From a virus, in IMG/VR virus record IMGVR_UViG_3300044988_000708, positions 1 through 20,084 of that record: 20,084 nt of DNA, one strand, 5' to 3'. The notes beneath the pieces were generated by a model. It searched no databases. It had not been told where the DNA came from and was given only the letters and a program-made list of their open reading frames with translations. Position numbers and translations under genes: made by a program. Below, one piece after another: positions 1-15,484 of this stretch (within the stretch, counting starts at the first letter, position 1; each line of letters starts with the position of its first letter).

Positions 1-20
1 ATGGGTGATGTGTCGTACAT
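1..20 (-). CDS. Start of a leftward gene running off the left edge
   Basis: Only the first residues (MYDTSP) are inside the window, so no function can be given. The start is nevertheless well supported. The ATG at 20-18 is preceded by a consensus AGGAGG (33-28) at a 7-base spacing, and further upstream by an extended -10 promoter. It is transcribed away from the integrase and the attachment-site region, in the same direction as the structural operon but separated from it by the integrase gene. In temperate phages, genes in this position are often regulatory or early genes. That is inference from position only. Confidence 0.6.
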
Positions 21-73
21 CCGCTCACCTCCTTTCCGCCTTCTATTATACCAGAAAGAGCGGAAAAGTTGTA
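21..73 (-). promoter_or_regulatory. Extended -10 promoter with bracketing operator-like inverted repeat and strong RBS
   Basis: Reading the - strand, TGGTATAAT (53-45) is a perfect extended -10 element. The hexamer 17 bases upstream (TACAAC, 73-68) is a poor -35, which an extended -10 can compensate for. AAAGGAGGTG (35-26) is a near-ideal ribosome binding site for the ATG at 20. A perfect 7-bp inverted repeat, TTTCCGC (33-39) and GCGGAAA (60-66), brackets the -10. A dimeric repressor bound there would block RNA polymerase. The promoter and RBS are seen directly; the operator role is inferred. Confidence 0.65.
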
Positions 74-93
74 GTTACAATGCTGACACACTA

Positions 94-111
94 TCCGGCA
101 CGACAGCCGGA
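94..111. repeat. Small perfect hairpin between promoter and att region
   Basis: TCCGGC-ACGACA-GCCGGA forms a perfect 6-bp stem with a 6-base loop. No T-tract follows on either strand, so it is a poor intrinsic terminator. It could be a protein-binding dyad or part of the left arm of the attachment site. Nothing further can be said from sequence. Confidence 0.4.
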
Positions 112-126
112 AACCCGCATAGCGAC

Positions 127-167
127 AGGGGTAGAGCAAAGATTAGAAATCCGCTGCTCTATCCCCT
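127..167. other. Probable phage attachment-site core (attP-like palindrome)
   Basis: Left arm AGGGGTAGAGCA (127-138) and right arm TGCTCTATCCCCT (155-167) form an inverted repeat interrupted by a single base. They surround a 16-base centre containing the anticodon loop of a tRNA-Arg. The right arm is the D arm of the tRNA half; the left arm is an inverted copy of it outside any tRNA. Anticodon loops are a known crossover point for tyrosine recombinases, because the anticodon stem gives a symmetric site with a 7-base overlap. With the integrase gene and phased repeats alongside, an attachment site is the best reading. Whether it is attP or a hybrid site cannot be proved here, but an intact tRNA is absent from the junction. 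Confidence 0.55.
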
Positions 168-180
168 GAGCTACGGGAGC
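141..180 (-). tRNA. 5' half of tRNA-Arg (anticodon UCU), fragment only
   Basis: On the - strand from 180, the sequence has a tRNA acceptor strand (GCTCCCG), the T8-A9 linker, a D stem and loop (GCTC, AGGGGATA, GAGC), then the 5' anticodon stem GCGGA and loop TTTCTAA. The anticodon is TCT, so the match is tRNA-Arg for AGA codons. The expected 3' anticodon strand TCCGC is replaced by TCTTT. No variable loop, T arm (GTTCRANNC) or 3' acceptor strand (CGGGAGC) is found in the remaining 140 bases. It therefore cannot make a tRNA as it stands. It is most likely the part of an attachment site identical to a host tRNA gene. Confidence 0.65.
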
Positions 181-208
181 TTAAGTCGTTTTACACTGTT
201 TGTATGGC

Positions 209-279
209 GCCAACAGATGCCAACAGATGCTGACCGTGCTGCCACAGTCTGCCACATCGGCTGCCACACTCCTGCCACA
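209..279. repeat. Phased direct repeats, probable integrase arm-binding sites
   Basis: A tandem pair of the 10-mer GCCAACAGAT lies at 209-228. It is followed by four exact copies of CTGCCACA starting at 239, 249, 261 and 272. All share the TGCCA core. Start-to-start spacings of 10, 12 and 11 bases are about one helical turn each, placing the sites on one face of the DNA. Directly repeated short sites between the crossover core and the int gene are the normal form of arm-type sites bound by the N-terminal domain of tyrosine integrases. The repeats end about 40 bases before the int start codon, so bound integrase could also repress its own gene. That last point is inference. Confidence 0.65.
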
Positions 280-300
280 GTGCTCTTGACTATGGCACGC

Positions 301-319
301 GCGGATGCGATCTGTCCGC
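301..319. repeat. Inverted repeat directly before the integrase start
   Basis: GCGGA (301-305) and TCCGC (315-319) form a 5-bp dyad separated by 9 bases, ending one base before the ATG at 321. No recognisable Shine-Dalgarno lies in this stretch. In RNA the hairpin would sit over the ribosome-binding region and could reduce translation. The arms equal the anticodon-stem strands of the tRNA-Arg half nearby, which may be chance in GC-rich DNA. Confidence 0.3.
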
Positions 320-320
320 C

Positions 321-1493: not shown

Positions 1494-4400
1494 TTATCCG
1501 CCCTGCATCATCTGCAAAACTCCCGGCGGCGGCTGCTCGGCGACTTGCCGGAACGGCGCTATTTGCTGCGCGGGGTTGGCCGCGACGGCTTCTGGGGCGT
1601 GACGCTGGATGGCGTCTTGGAGGATTTCGGCGAACCGCCTACGAAAACGAAGGACGTCCCGTACTCTCGAAGAGCCTCCTCGTTCGATAAGTCCCGAAAT
1701 GTAACTCTCCCCACCTTTCTGATTTTGCCAATTGTTTCCATAGCTTTTGATTTGAGCGGGCGTTGTGTCTACTTGCAAATCTACACCGTTGCGCCCTGCC
1801 CAGTCAACGATGTTTTTTTCAAATTGTGCGGCCCTTTTCTCTGTAAATCCCTTGGGCCGGAAGTCCGCGGCTGAATCGACGACGAATCCAATGTCGCCAC
1901 CAGGCAACTGCTGCACCGTGTAGCCCGACAGCCCAGCATCATCAATCAGCGATTGCATTTCCACGTCGCTGAACTTGCTGCCGTCCGCTTTTCTAAAAGT
2001 CATCGCCTTCGAGTTTTTGCCGCCGACACCCAGCGTGGCCGACATCGTCGCCGCTTGCTCGGATACCGTAGCCAAGCCCAGGCCCAACATGTCCGCCGCT
2101 TCCGGGCTGCCCAGCACCTCAATGACCGTTGTCGGCGCGCGGCTCTTGCCCCACACGCCGGTGCCCGCGGAGACGCGCTGCACGCGCAGCGACCCGCCGA
2201 TGATTTGCGACAGCTCGTTGACCGACTGCGTGATCACGTCCGTGGTGATGGCCGCTTGCGCCTCCGGCCGCAAAGTATCGAAGCCCGGAAAGTTCGCTGG
2301 CAACAGATCGCCGCTTGAATAATTGACTTCGGCAAAAATGCGCGACGAATTTTGCTGCAGCGCGCTATCCACCGTTGATTCCGGCAGCCCGTATTGACGC
2401 AGCGTGCGCATCCAGCCGACCGCTTGCACTTCCGCGGGCGTCCAGTTGCCGCCCTGCCATTGCGTCTCGTTGAGAAAGTCCGTCATCGAATTTCCCCACA
2501 CCGAGATGCCCTCGTATTGCGTGCTGCCAGGGCTGCCGCGCATATCCACATCGACGAAGAACGACTTGCCATTGGCCGGCGTCACGCGAATCCGCTCTGG
2601 CACCACCGCGGTCTTGTCGCCGCGCTTCACCGTCTTGGTTTTGGTCACCTTCACTGTAGCCGGTGCCCCGTCGATAAACAGATTGCCCTCGTCCGAAAGA
2701 TCCTTGAGCCGCGACAACGTCTGCTGGTCAACGTGCCCGCTGTCGCGTCCCGTATGAACGTCGGCGACAAACGGCCGGCCACCCTCGGGCCTGCCAGCCA
2801 TGTAAGTCCGCGCATCGCGCTGGAACCCGCTGTCCACAAAATCCGACAGCTTCGGTCCAAATCCGCCCTCCGGCACCACATCGCGCAACACGCCCTCGAT
2901 CTTCGCGTCGGCCAAGCCGCCCTTCTTGCCGGTGCCGATCCCGGCGATACGGTCCTCGACGCGGAACACATTTTTCAACGCGCCGCCCGGCGAAACATTC
3001 TGCTGCGCGGCCAGCCAAGCCATCATCATCTCGCCGGCGCGGTTGCCAAAGATGTTGGTGAAGTGACCGTAAAGCTCTTTGTACCATTGGCGGAATTGCT
3101 GTGTCTGCGCCGGCGTCAGCCACGATTCCGTCTCCTCGATCCATCCCTTAAAAGATTTGCCCCCATCCTTTTTGACTGCGCCGATATAAATCGGTTTGCC
3201 CTCGCCGGTGTGGAATCGCACCAAGTTATTCTTCGCCACGCCCGTGCCGGGTCGCCGCGCCTGGCGCTTCCGCAAATTCTCCATGCCATCGCCCACCGCG
3301 CTTTCAAGGAACCGCGCAGACTTTAGCCCAATGGCGTCTAGGTCCGGCGTTGCTTTCGGCTTATTCATCGGCGTCACATTAACCGCGCCGGTCGTATCGC
3401 TGAAGCGGCTGGCTTGGTAGGCGTTGACCACGCGCTTGAATGCCTCCTGTAGCAGCGGCTTGATGCGCTCTCCAAATTCCTTGATCATGTTGGCCGTCCA
3501 CACGGCGGCGTCCATGCCGGCGCGGTAGAGGCTGCGGCCGTAGTCAACGATGTCGGCGAGGATGGACACGTCGAGGGCGCCAGACTGCGAGCCGAGGTTG
3601 CGCTTGATGCGGTCGCGCGCGGCAGCGGCTGGTGCGTCAGGCGCCGCGGGAGCCACATCGCTCCCCATATCCGGCATCGGCTTCGGCGGCGGCTGGGTCA
3701 TGGTGCCGTCCGCGTTATTGCCGACCATGTTGTGGCCGCGGCGGCCGGTGGGCGTCACGCTTTCGATCAGTTCAAGGCGTGGGGTGCGCCAGATGCCGTC
3801 CTTGTCGATGAGTCCGCCGAAGACGTTGTCGGGGCCGTATTCAATCAGCCCCTTGGCCACGCGCAGGCGCTCAGGCGTGAGTCCGGTGCCGGGGTCGGCG
3901 TTGCGTCCCCTGTTGGCGATGTAGGTCTCGGCGTCGGCCATGATGGCGGCGAGGCTGTATCCGGGTCCGCCGCGGGACGTGTCAAGGGTCGGGTGCTTGG
4001 CCTCCATCACGGTGATGGCGCGGTTGCGCAGCGTGGTCATGTCGGCCAGCAGGACGTTCAGCTCACCGCCGCCCTTGTAGTTCTCGCGCTTGCGCCCAGT
4101 CGTGGCCTGCCAGCGCACCAGCACGCCCTCGCGGGTGGTTGCGCCGTATTGCGGGCCAGGGCGCTTGGTCACATCGGCGCTCGGGCCAAGGGCGTCGAAG
4201 CGCACAGCGACCGGCGTGCCGTCATTGATGGCGGCTTGCACCGTGTCGATCATTTCAAGGTGCGGCTTCCAGTGGTTGGCGTAGCGCACGCGATCCGGCA
4301 GGCTGCGGCCGGCGAGGATGCGGCGGTTGCCCTCTTGGCGCCAACCGAAGCTCAAGTTGTCCGGCGTCAATGTCGGCCCGTCCGGCCCGCCGGCGAGGTC

Positions 4401-7175
4401 CATGATCTGCCGCGACCGCATCGGCGCGTCGGTCATGCTCAACTCAATCGCCGCCGCCCGCTCCGGCGACACCGGCTCGGTGGTCGGCGTCTCGTTGGCC
4501 GGGTCGCGGCGCATCTTGTTGTAGCCTTCGGTGTAATTCTTCAGCCCCTGCGCCACGGCGGGGTCATCGGCGGCGGCGGGGTTGGTGCGCTTGATCGAGT
4601 CCGGTGTGTCCAGCGGTCGGCCCGTCTCCGGGTCGATGCGCACGCCGCTGATCATCAGGCCGCGGGCCTGGGCGCCGAGCACGTTCTCGAGGTGGGTGAT
4701 CGGGTTGTTGCCCTTGGGCAGACCGCGGCGCATGCGGTTCCAGTCCACGATGCCGCTGCTCAAATCCTCCGCGGCGATGGCCTGGCGGCTCCAGATGTTG
4801 GCGTCACCAAATTCCGTCTGCGACTGCGAGCGCAGCATGGCGAGGCGCAGGTCAATCTCTGCGTCCGTTGCGCCGCCCTTCACGCCCTGCTTGGCATACT
4901 TAGCATCGATCTCAGCCTTGGCAATGGCCCGCTCGCGCGCGGCGATCTGCTCCGGCGTGTAAAGCGTTTCGACCGAATTGATCATCGCCGCCACCTGCCG
5001 GTCGGGCAGGCTCTCGCTCTGCAGGAATGCGCGCCCAAGGTCGCCGGCTTTGATTGACCCGGCATCCTCCACATTGACAAAGACCCGCGGGCGCTCGCCG
5101 TCTGGGGCGTGCAGAAAGATAGGGCCGGAATTGTTTGGGTTGAGCGCCTTGCGGTTGGCCTCAAAGTCCGCAGCGTTGAGCGGCACGAAGTCCGTTGTGT
5201 CGCGGAAGTATCCCTGCACGGCGGCAAATTCGTTGAGGCGGTCGGGCGAAAGATTGTTCACCATGGCCGACACATCGCCACCGGACAGCTCGACCTCGGT
5301 CAGCGTGCGCATCACCTCGCCATCGGGATCGGCCTGCGGAGCGCGCTTGCGCGGCACCGTCTCGCCCATGCCCTGCACCTCGGCCAGCATCCGGCCCACG
5401 TCGCTGTCGGCCGCCATGGCGCGACGCCCGGCAGTGCCAGACACGCGGCCCGCCACGCCCATCGGGGCGCCGATCACCGCGCCCAGCCCGAGCATAAGGT
5501 TGGCTGCGTCCTCCTCGCCGGCCGCCCGCAGCGGCTCGCTGAACGGCACATTGGCGAGCGCTCCCTTGACCGCGCCGCTCGCCGCCGCACTGGTTCCGCG
5601 CACCGCTTGCACCGCGCGCCAATCGGCAAGGTTGCCAAAAAGTTTCCGCGCCCGCGGCGACAGGCTCATGTCTTTCGACAAGCGCGCCGGCGTTGATTCC
5701 ATCGCCGTATACACGCTCGGACGCACCAGCGGGTCTTTGTAGCGCAGCGGCACGTCCGGGTTCACCGCCACCGCCGCCCGCGCGCCCTTATCGATAGCGT
5801 TGCCCGGGCCGATGCTTTCGCGCAGCAGATACGAAGCCTTGCCGGCATAGTTGCCGTAGCCGCGAAGCACAACGCCACCGCCAACCAAGGTCGCATACGC
5901 GCCTAGCCCGTAGTTAAGGAATCGCACCGCCTCGTCAGCCGCCTCGCTGTCCATGTTTTGGCCCATGACGTTGGCCACGGCACCGACACCGCCCGCGCCA
6001 AGAAGACGCTTTGCGCGCTGCGCTACCCGCGCGCCCTTGGCCCCTTTGTCGCCCAAGTTTGCCACCGCGGTCGCCGCCTTGCCGGTCAGCTCTAGCGTGC
6101 GCGCCGTGGCTCCCTTGGCCGCCGCGGTAATACCGAAGCGCACTGGAGACAGCACGCCAGCGCCAACCGCCCCTGGATCAACCAGCATCGACCCAATCAT
6201 TGACTGCGACTGAATCGGCTTTTGCGGCTCATTCCACGGCAGGTCCGCCGTGCGGTATCCCGCCGGCGCCAAGCCCGAGGCCCGCGCTGCGATGTCAATC
6301 GTCTCATTGAGCCGTCCAATAAAATCTCCTCCCGCGCTGACCACTTGATCCGGCACGCCGACCGACCTAGCAATGGTTCCAGTGCCAGACGCCGTGCCCT
6401 GCTCCATCAAAGTCTCGAGCTGCTGCGTGGAATCCAGCTTCTGTAGGAACTGCTCGTATTCCAAATCCTTGAGGTCTTCCTCGCCCACTGGCCGCAGCGT
6501 TTTGCCCTGCTGCTTGTACATCTGCACCAAGTCAAACGTCGTGTCGCCCATACCGGCGTCCGGCATCATCGTGCCCGGATAAACAAACTCGCCCGTCTCC
6601 TCGACCCGATACTTCGGCGAGCTGGCCAGCCCGCGCGACAGGCTTTTGTAGAAGTCCAAGTTGAACTCGTTGGCGCCGGCCAAGGTCGCGCCCGCGCGCC
6701 GTCCTGTCTCAATCATCGCCGCGCCGGGATTAAAGGTGCTCGGCTTGCCCTGCAAGTTGCTATACATGCCGCGCGTCACGAAATCCGCGGCGTTGCGCAG
6801 CGTGATCGACCCCTCGTTGGCTGGATCGTATTTCCACACCGCCGAGCTGATGGCGTCCGCGCCCGAGACAAACAGATCGCCGATCATCGCGCCCACGCCG
6901 GGGCCATCGGCCTCCACGCCCTGCTTTTTCAGATCGGCCAGCAGCGCCTTGTTGCCGAAGTACTCTTCTCGAGACGGCCGCGGATTGCGCCAGTCGTACA
7001 TTGCCGTGGCGCCCCGGGCCATAACCTCTACGGCATCCCTTCCCTCTGGCTTTGGATTGGCTGCATCCATGGCCAAGATTTCCTCTGCCGTTCGCGCCGG
7101 GACCGCAGTTTCCGCGGGCGCGGCCTGCTGCGCCTGCATGATTTCCTGTGCAGTTCTGCCTTGAGAAGCGACCAT
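1494..7175 (-). CDS. Giant virion/polyvalent protein (1893 aa), last gene of the structural operon
   Basis: Its size and its place after three helical virion proteins match the largest DNA-ejection protein of podoviruses (T7 gp16 position), but no direct similarity to gp16 and no clear transglycosylase motif is seen. Small-residue-rich hydrophobic stretches lie near residues 422-438 and 557-576, flanked by Ala/Gly/Lys-rich segments (330-400), compatible with membrane or channel insertion. Residues 1201-1253 (ILADIVDYGRSL... MIKEFGERIKPLLQEAF) resemble a segment often found in large polyvalent proteins of phages and conjugative elements. Residues 1350-1490 (WYKELYG, AWLAAQQNVSPGGAL) resemble another domain of such proteins. 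The N terminus repeats a TA(Q/E)EI(M/L) motif (8-13, 29-34). The start codon lies 4 bases after the upstream stop, with only a weak RBS (GGCGGG). Confidence 0.6.
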   Translation of the reverse strand: MVASQGRTAQEIMQAQQAAPAETAVPARTAEEILAMDAANPKPEGRDAVEVMARGATAMYDWRNPRPSREEYFGNKALLADLKKQGVEADGPGVGAMIGDLFVSGADAISSAVWKYDPANEGSITLRNAADFVTRGMYSNLQGKPSTFNPGAAMIETGRRAGATLAGANEFNLDFYKSLSRGLASSPKYRVEETGEFVYPGTMMPDAGMGDTTFDLVQMYKQQGKTLRPVGEEDLKDLEYEQFLQKLDSTQQLETLMEQGTASGTGTIARSVGVPDQVVSAGGDFIGRLNETIDIAARASGLAPAGYRTADLPWNEPQKPIQSQSMIGSMLVDPGAVGAGVLSPVRFGITAAAKGATARTLELTGKAATAVANLGDKGAKGARVAQRAKRLLGAGGVGAVANVMGQNMDSEAADEAVRFLNYGLGAYATLVGGGVVLRGYGNYAGKASYLLRESIGPGNAIDKGARAAVAVNPDVPLRYKDPLVRPSVYTAMESTPARLSKDMSLSPRARKLFGNLADWRAVQAVRGTSAAASGAVKGALANVPFSEPLRAAGEEDAANLMLGLGAVIGAPMGVAGRVSGTAGRRAMAADSDVGRMLAEVQGMGETVPRKRAPQADPDGEVMRTLTEVELSGGDVSAMVNNLSPDRLNEFAAVQGYFRDTTDFVPLNAADFEANRKALNPNNSGPIFLHAPDGERPRVFVNVEDAGSIKAGDLGRAFLQSESLPDRQVAAMINSVETLYTPEQIAARERAIAKAEIDAKYAKQGVKGGATDAEIDLRLAMLRSQSQTEFGDANIWSRQAIAAEDLSSGIVDWNRMRRGLPKGNNPITHLENVLGAQARGLMISGVRIDPETGRPLDTPDSIKRTNPAAADDPAVAQGLKNYTEGYNKMRRDPANETPTTEPVSPERAAAIELSMTDAPMRSRQIMDLAGGPDGPTLTPDNLSFGWRQEGNRRILAGRSLPDRVRYANHWKPHLEMIDTVQAAINDGTPVAVRFDALGPSADVTKRPGPQYGATTREGVLVRWQATTGRKRENYKGGGELNVLLADMTTLRNRAITVMEAKHPTLDTSRGGPGYSLAAIMADAETYIANRGRNADPGTGLTPERLRVAKGLIEYGPDNVFGGLIDKDGIWRTPRLELIESVTPTGRRGHNMVGNNADGTMTQPPPKPMPDMGSDVAPAAPDAPAAAARDRIKRNLGSQSGALDVSILADIVDYGRSLYRAGMDAAVWTANMIKEFGERIKPLLQEAFKRVVNAYQASRFSDTTGAVNVTPMNKPKATPDLDAIGLKSARFLESAVGDGMENLRKRQARRPGTGVAKNNLVRFHTGEGKPIYIGAVKKDGGKSFKGWIEETESWLTPAQTQQFRQWYKELYGHFTNIFGNRAGEMMMAWLAAQQNVSPGGALKNVFRVEDRIAGIGTGKKGGLADAKIEGVLRDVVPEGGFGPKLSDFVDSGFQRDARTYMAGRPEGGRPFVADVHTGRDSGHVDQQTLSRLKDLSDEGNLFIDGAPATVKVTKTKTVKRGDKTAVVPERIRVTPANGKSFFVDVDMRGSPGSTQYEGISVWGNSMTDFLNETQWQGGNWTPAEVQAVGWMRTLRQYGLPESTVDSALQQNSSRIFAEVNYSSGDLLPANFPGFDTLRPEAQAAITTDVITQSVNELSQIIGGSLRVQRVSAGTGVWGKSRAPTTVIEVLGSPEAADMLGLGLATVSEQAATMSATLGVGGKNSKAMTFRKADGSKFSDVEMQSLIDDAGLSGYTVQQLPGGDIGFVVDSAADFRPKGFTEKRAAQFEKNIVDWAGRNGVDLQVDTTPAQIKSYGNNWQNQKGGESYISGLIERGGSSRVRDVLRFRRRFAEILQDAIQRHAPEAVAANPAQQIAPFRQVAEQPPPGVLQMMQGG

Positions 7176-8878: not shown

Positions 8879-9997
8879 TTAAGCCGCCTTGGCGGTCATC
8901 AGTTCTTCAGCGAGGGCAGCGCCAATGACAGCCGGCTTGATGGCCAGCCGTTTCTTGCCCTTGTAATCGACTTCAGTTACCGCCTCTGGCAGCACCTTCT
9001 GCACGTCTTGAGCCATGAAGCCCTTGTGCTTTTTGTCCTCGCCCTTGTATTTGTATTCGTAGGCGGTGAGGCCAAGCACGCTGCCAGCCTTGCCGAGCGG
9101 CTTGATGTCTTTCTTCTCGCGCTTGTCAGAGAGGGCAAAGCCCGCGCCGCCGAGCAGACCGCCGCCGATGCTCCCGATCATGCCCATGGTCGCCGCGTTG
9201 TTCATCGCCCCAGCATTCATCTGCGCGCCGCGCATCGCCGCCCAGTTGTTCATCGCCGAGTTGGCGCGGGAATCGATGGCATTCATATTGAAGCTCGCCA
9301 CATCCCCCGCCATGCCGGTCGCATTGCCAAACGCACTAGTCATCTGCTGCATCTGGTTGCCCAGAGTGCCGCCGCTGTAGTTGAGCGCGGGTCCAAGCGC
9401 GCGAGCATACGGGTCGGCATGAATAAGGTTTCCGGCTCCGGCGAAGTTGAGGTTGGCGATAGCCTGTCGGCGGGCGCCCACGTTTTGCGTCAGCATGTTA
9501 TTGGCCGCTGAGGCGAAGTTGCGCCGCTCGGCTTCGCGCTGGTCCGCCATGCTCTGGCGCCCCAGAACTTCGGCCGCTGCGCTGCCCAGCGAGGTGCCAA
9601 GCCCGCGCGCTGCAAAGGCGCCACGGGCCGCCTGCTGCGACATGCGTTCATCTTCTGCCGACAGCGACCGGCCCAAGGCCAAGTCGCGCTCGGCGTCGTC
9701 GTAGAGGCGGCGCTCAATGCTGGTCGGGTCGCGGTCCTCCGGTGCATACAGCGACATGCCATCGCGGATGGCGCGCAGTGCGTCAGTCGTCTCCGGTGTG
9801 CGCAGGTTGGCGGCGATCTTGTCCGCCGTGCCGAGGCTTAGGGCTTCCAGCTTCGGGTAGTTGCGGATCATCGCGCGATACTGCGCATTGACCTGCTCTG
9901 TTGCGGCCTGCGAAGCCGAGCGCATCAGCGCTTCATAGTTGATCGGCTCGGCGTATTGCACGTCCGGCCTTGTCATTCCTCCTCCAGATGAACCCAT
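8879..9997 (-). CDS. Virion protein with C-terminal S74 intramolecular chaperone domain
   Basis: The first 250 residues are Ala/Met/Asn/Gln-rich and helical, followed by a Gly-rich hydrophobic segment (MGMIGSIGGGLLGGAGF, 271-287). This fits a gp14-like ejection protein that enters the membrane. From residue 290 a Peptidase_S74-type chaperone domain begins: SDKREKKDI gives the expected Ser290 and Lys295 cleavage pair, with GFMAQDV at 326-332. In known members this domain helps trimerise spikes or fibres and then cuts itself off before the serine. The start has a consensus AAGGAG (10011-10006). An in-frame ATG at 9976 also has a GGAGG just upstream, so two starts are possible. The S74 domain call is confident; the ejection role is inferred. 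Confidence 0.75.
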   Translation of the reverse strand: MGSSGGGMTRPDVQYAEPINYEALMRSASQAATEQVNAQYRAMIRNYPKLEALSLGTADKIAANLRTPETTDALRAIRDGMSLYAPEDRDPTSIERRLYDDAERDLALGRSLSAEDERMSQQAARGAFAARGLGTSLGSAAAEVLGRQSMADQREAERRNFASAANNMLTQNVGARRQAIANLNFAGAGNLIHADPYARALGPALNYSGGTLGNQMQQMTSAFGNATGMAGDVASFNMNAIDSRANSAMNNWAAMRGAQMNAGAMNNAATMGMIGSIGGGLLGGAGFALSDKREKKDIKPLGKAGSVLGLTAYEYKYKGEDKKHKGFMAQDVQKVLPEAVTEVDYKGKKRLAIKPAVIGAALAEELMTAKAA

Positions 9998-14911: not shown

Positions 14912-15484
14912 TTAGGCGGTATCTTTTCTGGGTTGGGTCAAGACGTAGCTGACGGTTTTGGCGTTGTTGCGTTTCATTTCGGCTTCAACCAAAGCGATGA
15001 AGGCGTTCCATTGGGTGCCCGGCGGGACAACAGTGCAGCCTTCGCTGCCTGGCCCTCTGGTGGCGGGGCCACCGCGATGCACGTTGATGCCAAACCAGCC
15101 GGTCTCTTCCTTGTCGTCGCGGAGGACGGTGACCGGAGCTGCTTGGACCAAGGCGCGGTAAGGGTTGCCGCGCCGAATGCCATGCAGTCCGAGTTTGTAT
15201 TTCCAGACTCCGGGCTTGAGGACGGCATAGGGCTTGTTGATCTTGGGATTCTTTCCGTAGCGGTCGGGATCGACCGAGGCATTGAACGTGGCGTGCACGT
15301 CGCCGCCGCTGCTGATGAGGATGAGGGCGTCGTCGTAGATGCCGCGCGAGTTGCCGGGCTTCTTGTCGAGCTTGCTGTAGTAGCCGCGCACGCCGACCAG
15401 CACGACAGGATCGCTGACCTTGTGCTGCTTGAGCAGCGCAGCGGTCGCTTCCTTCTTTTGCTTGGGGCGGGCGCTCGGGATCAT
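14912..15484 (-). CDS. L,D-transpeptidase-like peptidoglycan enzyme, candidate endolysin (190 aa)
   Basis: The key motif is NVHRGG at 134-139 followed by SEGCT at 147-151, giving His136, Ser147, Gly149 and Cys150. This is the His...S-x-G-C arrangement of YkuD-type L,D-transpeptidase cysteine enzymes. GIYDDALILISSGG (48-61) and WKYKLGLHG (94-102) precede it. No signal peptide is seen, so release would need a holin. The gene ends a run of small membrane proteins and overlaps the upstream one as ATGA, the usual place for an endolysin. No other muralytic gene is visible in the window. The fold call is from the motif; the role as lysin rather than virion enzyme is inferred. Confidence 0.68.
   Translation of the reverse strand: MIPSARPKQKKEATAALLKQHKVSDPVVLVGVRGYYSKLDKKPGNSRGIYDDALILISSGGDVHATFNASVDPDRYGKNPKINKPYAVLKPGVWKYKLGLHGIRRGNPYRALVQAAPVTVLRDDKEETGWFGINVHRGGPATRGPGSEGCTVVPPGTQWNAFIALVEAEMKRNNAKTVSYVLTQPRKDTA

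Follow-up and report, generated by a model that had tools for sequence, protein, structure and literature searches.

Why does a phage carry the 5' half of a host tRNA gene beside its integrase gene, and from which DNA would the host read this tRNA after integration? The question is raised by an entire linear IMG/VR record of 20,084 bases (the window), in which the tRNA half lies near one end (Table 1). An initial annotation had taken this region for an attachment site with crossover in the anticodon loop, and had suggested that integration would put the host tRNA under phage control. Our analyses make it very probable that the region is the attP of a temperate phage, that the crossover takes place in the anticodon loop, and that the tRNA gene is rebuilt from phage upstream DNA and the phage 5' half together with the host 3' half.

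Table 1 Features at and around the attachment site of the window
Feature	Position	Strand	Remarks
tRNA-Arg(TCT) 5' half, attP core region	141..180	-	identical to the front of complete Chthoniobacterales tRNA-Arg(TCT) genes
Anticodon loop TTTCTAA, 7 nt	143..149	-	predicted crossover (overlap) region; L013/L017 breakpoint and ends of displaced halves
140-bp spacer, tRNA 5' end to integrase	181..320	.	L013 equivalent is phage DNA common with free L017
ACAGTG, version of the ACAGAG-like motif; possible Int arm site	194..199	-	position -19 from the tRNA start
Non-integrase arm of attP	60..140	.	unrelated to tRNA; varies among clades
Phage left arm sequence			TCTTTGCTCT...
Tyrosine integrase, 371 aa	321..1436	+	PHROG 1 integrase, E=2e-19; divergent from the tRNA half

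The tRNA half and the integrase gene of the window

Read from 180 to 141, the sequence GCTCCCGTAGCTCAGGGGATAGAGCAGCGGATTTCTAATC equals positions 1–40 of tRNA-Arg(TCT). That is, it begins with position 1, includes the whole anticodon loop TTTCTAA (149→143, with positions 1–38 ending at 143), and ends two bases beyond it. Since the integrase gene starts 140 bp away on the opposite strand, the 5' end of the half faces this gene, and the annotated location of a tRNA-Arg 5' half on the integrase side is correct. According to ARAGORN, the window has no complete tRNA, and the sole Rfam RF00005 match there is partial and weak (102–180, 12.6 bits, under the cut-off).

A search of ~85,000 species genomes for the exact 40-mer gives 2, both of them Chthoniobacterales MAGs (L066 and L067), and both times it is the front of a complete tRNA-Arg(TCT) gene, so that the matching host genes which the annotation had proposed to search for do exist. 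These two loci are empty sites. With at most one mismatch, the 40-mer is present in 11 of 213 Chthoniobacterales genomes. On sequence grounds, the half is not a chance occurrence, and judging from the 40-nt match only, the host of the window's phage is probably a member of Chthoniobacterales (Verrucomicrobiota). The candidate host genome G002 has 42 tRNA genes, of which a single one is tRNA-Arg(TCT).

The window integrase has no Pfam match and its relatives match PF00589, which together with the PHROG 1 assignment places it in the tyrosine recombinase family. Its AlphaFold model, with a pLDDT of 50, is too poor to contribute further.

Attachment sites of related phages and an integrated relative

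The integrase has 28 viral relatives, or 35 when the alignment is used as the query, and relatives are absent from the 50,697 deposited phage records searched. Every relative with readable DNA upstream of the integrase gene carries a divergent tRNA 5' half, ~140–230 bp from this gene. The half belongs to tRNA-Arg(TCT) in the window's clade and the L012–L018/L024 lineages, to tRNA-Met(CAT) in L011, L020–L023, L026, L027, L060, and L065, and to tRNA-Thr(TGT) in L040–L043 and L062. The phage Met half is identical to the start of the tRNA-Met gene of G002. Pattern scans of IMG/VR give the same picture from the side of the tRNA: all 18 contigs with the Arg half (small variants included) fall in the window's integrase family, 9 of 9 contigs with the Met half also carry a family integrase, and the Thr half is found in 6 contigs, one of which (L095) ends at the contig edge before the integrase gene. 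Across the family, identity to the tRNA extends from position 1 to 38–40 and ends at either side. As the annotation had it, the 3' half is missing: except for the integrated L013, there is none in the window or in 34 related records (≤44 kb, many of them fragments), and 34 of the 35 records have no complete tRNA, the exception again being L013, whose 3' half is host-derived.

L013 contains an intact tRNA-Arg(TCT) with the integrase gene upstream and divergent, and past the tRNA 3' end there are host genes for KefB-like and MFS-like transporters. It is 89% identical to the free form L017 over 2364 bp, from its position 3566 onward. This position is tRNA position 38, the final base of the anticodon loop, and the homology breakpoint is therefore at 38/39. 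Past the loop, L013 continues into the host tRNA 3' half and L017 into the phage left arm. The spacer upstream of the L013 tRNA, at 3604–3752, is also found in L017, and it is therefore phage DNA. This is the kind of prophage junction at the anticodon loop that the annotation had suggested looking for, with the 5' half as the phage-borne one, and it is direct evidence for the claim that the phage gives both the 5' half and all upstream DNA of the rebuilt gene. The L013 integrase is ~41% identical to that of the window, and the far end of its prophage is not on its contig. Accordingly, what is seen is the integrase-side junction alone for L013, and attP alone for the window's own subclade, of which we found no two-ended integrated copy.

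The linear form of the record, with the tRNA half close to one end, could also mean that the window starts inside a prophage which had integrated in the ordinary way with a 3' half, the 5' half being a host remnant at the displaced junction. In L002 and L007, however, phage DNA flanks the half for kilobases on both sides, and in every relative the half is on the integrase side. The integrated L013 restores the intact gene at exactly this side, and its comparison with L017 contradicts a host remnant, which makes this explanation scarcely credible. It is slightly less improbable, yet still very unlikely, that the half is not used for integration, being a relic or a tRNA-like sequence arisen by chance, or that it acts as a regulatory RNA derived from the tRNA. 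In favour of this, the left arm CAGGGGTAGAGCA can pair with the tRNA D arm TGCTCTATCCCCTG in the window's clade (window 125–170), so that the attP of this clade can form a hairpin around the crossover and a transcript could fold into a long hairpin. This complementarity is, however, missing in the other clades. Moreover, the half is kept to position 1 while the flanks diverge between clades with integrases ~40% identical; the two acceptor variants of the phages, GCTCCCG and GCGCCCG, are both seen in hosts too, in most cases together with the matching 3' strand; and in L013 the half is part of a complete tRNA gene, with the recombination lying within it.

For the preferred attP reading, the integrase would recombine attP and the host tRNA-Arg(TCT) gene within the 7-bp anticodon loop that both contain. 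At the integrase side, the gene would be rebuilt from phage upstream DNA, the phage 5' half, and the host 3' half, and the integrase gene would end up divergent from and upstream of the rebuilt tRNA. The host promoter and the host 5' half would be moved to the far end of the prophage. It is because the half on the integrase side is the 5' one and not the 3' one that the rebuilt gene comes to lie behind phage upstream DNA. The window's own phage should integrate likewise, and its spacer at 181–320 would then lie upstream of the restored tRNA.

On the other arm of attP, a small ORF of 42–43 aa (MRYDTSPMGIVYGP...) with a strong RBS lies in the tRNA orientation ~120 bp beyond the half (left of attP in L002; window 1–25). 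We considered and rejected the idea that a host promoter is captured there to drive phage genes: the RBS-led left-arm ORF is found in L002, L003, L004, and L006, and not in other clades. L005 and L007 have unrelated DNA in place of the left arm.

Displaced tRNA halves and integrase remnants in bacterial genomes

A strict integrase search of 384 Verrucomicrobiae genomes gave zero matches, and the narrow family alignment likewise matched no integrase in the genome contigs; looser searches led to distant relatives. Two of them show both ends of an integrated element, with the intact tRNA on the integrase side and a 5' fragment at the far end. In G685, an intact tRNA-Arg(TCT) is located at 15401→15325 with the integrase gene upstream and divergent, and a displaced copy of positions 1–39, 100% identical and in the same orientation, is located 44.7 kb off (60060→60022). 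Upstream of this displaced half, TTGCCA is kept at the spacing which the native promoters have in sister genomes. What lies upstream of the intact tRNA is unrelated to those promoters. An uninterrupted empty site was sought in the family of G685, where sisters have the tRNA with flanks that are not alignable. In G319, whose integrase is 26% identical, an intact tRNA-Lys(CTT) is located at 43754 and positions 1–38 are displaced to 89137, 45.4 kb away. An integrase remnant (64 aa, 73% identical) is found upstream of this displaced half as well, which suggests a second, decayed element in tandem, by which the native upstream DNA is hidden. The displaced halves thus stop in the anticodon loop, at position 39 in G685 and 38 in G319, and together with the L013/L017 breakpoint they corroborate the annotated crossover there. 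The integrase gene is whole in the integrated L013, G319, and G685.

The opposite kind of integration is also met in this wider family, since G206 leaves a displaced 3' half (33–90) and L115 carries a tRNA-Lys 3' half. L125, L128, L205, and L216 are called 5'-type from orientation only, and their displaced half was not found on the sequence read. In the integrase tree, the phage sequences group in a clade with support of 100/99, of which every member is 5'-type. In the wider family, 5'- and 3'-types are intermixed with at least 3 changes on the tree; a single clade of 5'-type use is not rejected (AU p=0.16).

Several other arrangements were observed. In a third layout (G203:C1:1522470-1559926, L235–L237), a displaced tRNA-Leu(CAG) 3' half is on the integrase side and the intact gene is 37 kb off at the other end. 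At G574:C9:79148-83018 (L261), a 3.8-kb insert is flanked by a 93-nt, 95.7% identical copy of the promoter and the tRNA-Arg(TCT) 5' half; an integrase of the window's family is absent from this interval, and one ORF in it resembles, at a guess, a TIR-type or nucleotide-binding effector. It is either an element bringing a host-type promoter or a local duplication. G097 has two family integrases (L112 and L132) broken by an in-frame stop or frame change, and L132 is near tRNA-Thr(CGT).

In four genomes of one genus, G319 and its sisters G509–G511 (L155–L158, L118–L121), decayed integrase fragments constitute the upstream region of tRNA-Lys(CTT). The integrase-derived DNA directly upstream of this gene amounts to 149 aa with frame changes in G511 (E=7e-23; 521 nt at 71%), 58 nt at 84% in G510, and 49 nt at 86% in G509. 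In G510, the front half of this tRNA persists as a 38-nt copy on another contig. The integrase-derived DNA in these three sisters means that element DNA has outlived the integrase as the upstream region of the tRNA, and this remnant DNA should drive the transcription of tRNA-Lys.

Possible control of the restored tRNA and comparison with known systems

With the host promoter displaced to the far end, the restored tRNA would in principle have to be transcribed from phage-supplied DNA, and as the candidate host G002 has a single tRNA-Arg(TCT) gene, the host would need to read this tRNA from there. The window spacer would therefore be expected to hold a working promoter. TCGACA-17/18-TAAATT-like promoters precede three native Chthoniobacterales tRNA-Arg(TCT) genes (p=0.003 vs shuffles), and no sigma-70 consensus promoter above shuffled controls was found in the phage spacers. 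Of 14 clade representatives, 9 have ACAGAG (or ATAGAG, ACAGTG) at exactly -19 from the start of the tRNA, and 10 have CTCTGT or CCCTGT on the opposite arm; the rows are related, and the motif statistics come from mononucleotide shuffles. We read the two motifs as predicted Int arm sites; the -19 motif may also be a candidate promoter element. In addition, the window spacer has direct repeats, GCCAACAGAT twice at 209–228 and the GCTGCCACA type three times at 238–282, which are possible arm sites of the integrase.

The phage DNA upstream of the tRNA and the motif pair could be taken to mean that the prophage regulates the restored tRNA through the integrase region, for example, by Int binding at the -19 motif to tune the supply of tRNA-Arg(UCU). 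We consider such regulation unlikely, since no promoter is recognised and the motif pair is equally explained by arm sites serving recombination alone. The "phage control" of the annotation is thus structural only: the upstream DNA is supplied by the phage, while no spacer promoter stands out from shuffles and no regulation has been observed.

The classic arrangement, in which attP has the 3' half and the tRNA remains behind its host promoter, is not found here, as the phages carry the 5' half only and the upstream DNA in L013 is that of the phage. The 5'-half layout is rare but has precedents, and here it is typical of an entire group of phages related to one another. According to the Islander report (PMC4383910), 159 of 3919 islands have a displaced 5' fragment and 3760 a 3' fragment, and a review describes the use of the 5' half as seldom met in bacteria (PMC8371274). 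Like the displaced-5' islands of Islander, our elements carry the 5' half and displace the host 5' fragment; here, a supported phage integrase clade keeps the 5' half across three tRNA identities. The window family also resembles the temperate phages and islands with tyrosine integrases that cross over in the anticodon loop, a sublocation class of Williams 2002 as cited in PMC8371274, in its tRNA target, its loop crossover, and the intact gene at one junction with a fragment at the other. In these elements, it is usually the 3' half that is carried, and the host promoter stays with the gene; in the window family, it is the 5' half, and the gene is parted from the host promoter.

The archaeal pTN3-like integrases use the tRNA 5' half as well (PMC8371274, PMC5495485), and the restored tRNA is likewise parted from its original promoter. 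In pTN3, however, the att site belongs to the integrase gene itself, so that integration splits this gene, whereas the attP of the window is 140 bp upstream and the integrase gene stays intact. As in the tRNA-dependent lysogeny of phage Fionnbharth (PMC10865867), the host tRNA function of a lysogen would depend on phage sequence; Fionnbharth has a whole tRNA and the host gene is not restored, while the phages of the window family have no whole tRNA.

An element with the 5' half must also supply the transcription of the tRNA, which is presumably why carriage of this half is rare. It is conceivable, though we hold it rather less likely than its contrary, that some Verrucomicrobiota phages and islands form a lineage specialised in the 5' half, which seizes the upstream regions of essential tRNA genes and locks the host to element promoters. 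On this view, since the region upstream of tRNA-Lys(CTT) in the sisters of G319 is still an integrase fragment of a lost element, losing an element without retaining its promoter would be counter-selected. If true, the lineage would practise a tRNA-based addiction and offer a means of replacing tRNA promoters over evolutionary time. The promoter takeover is made testable by the clade across three tRNA identities, further 5'-type relatives at other tRNAs, the two-ended cases, and the remnants. In addition, attP/attB pairs have been gained for uncultured Verrucomicrobiota phages.

Elsewhere in the window, a minus-strand ORF of 1893 aa adjoins the integrase gene (1494–7175) with no PHROG or Pfam match, and a tail-fibre-like protein with a C-terminal Peptidase_S74 chaperone domain is encoded at 8879–9997.
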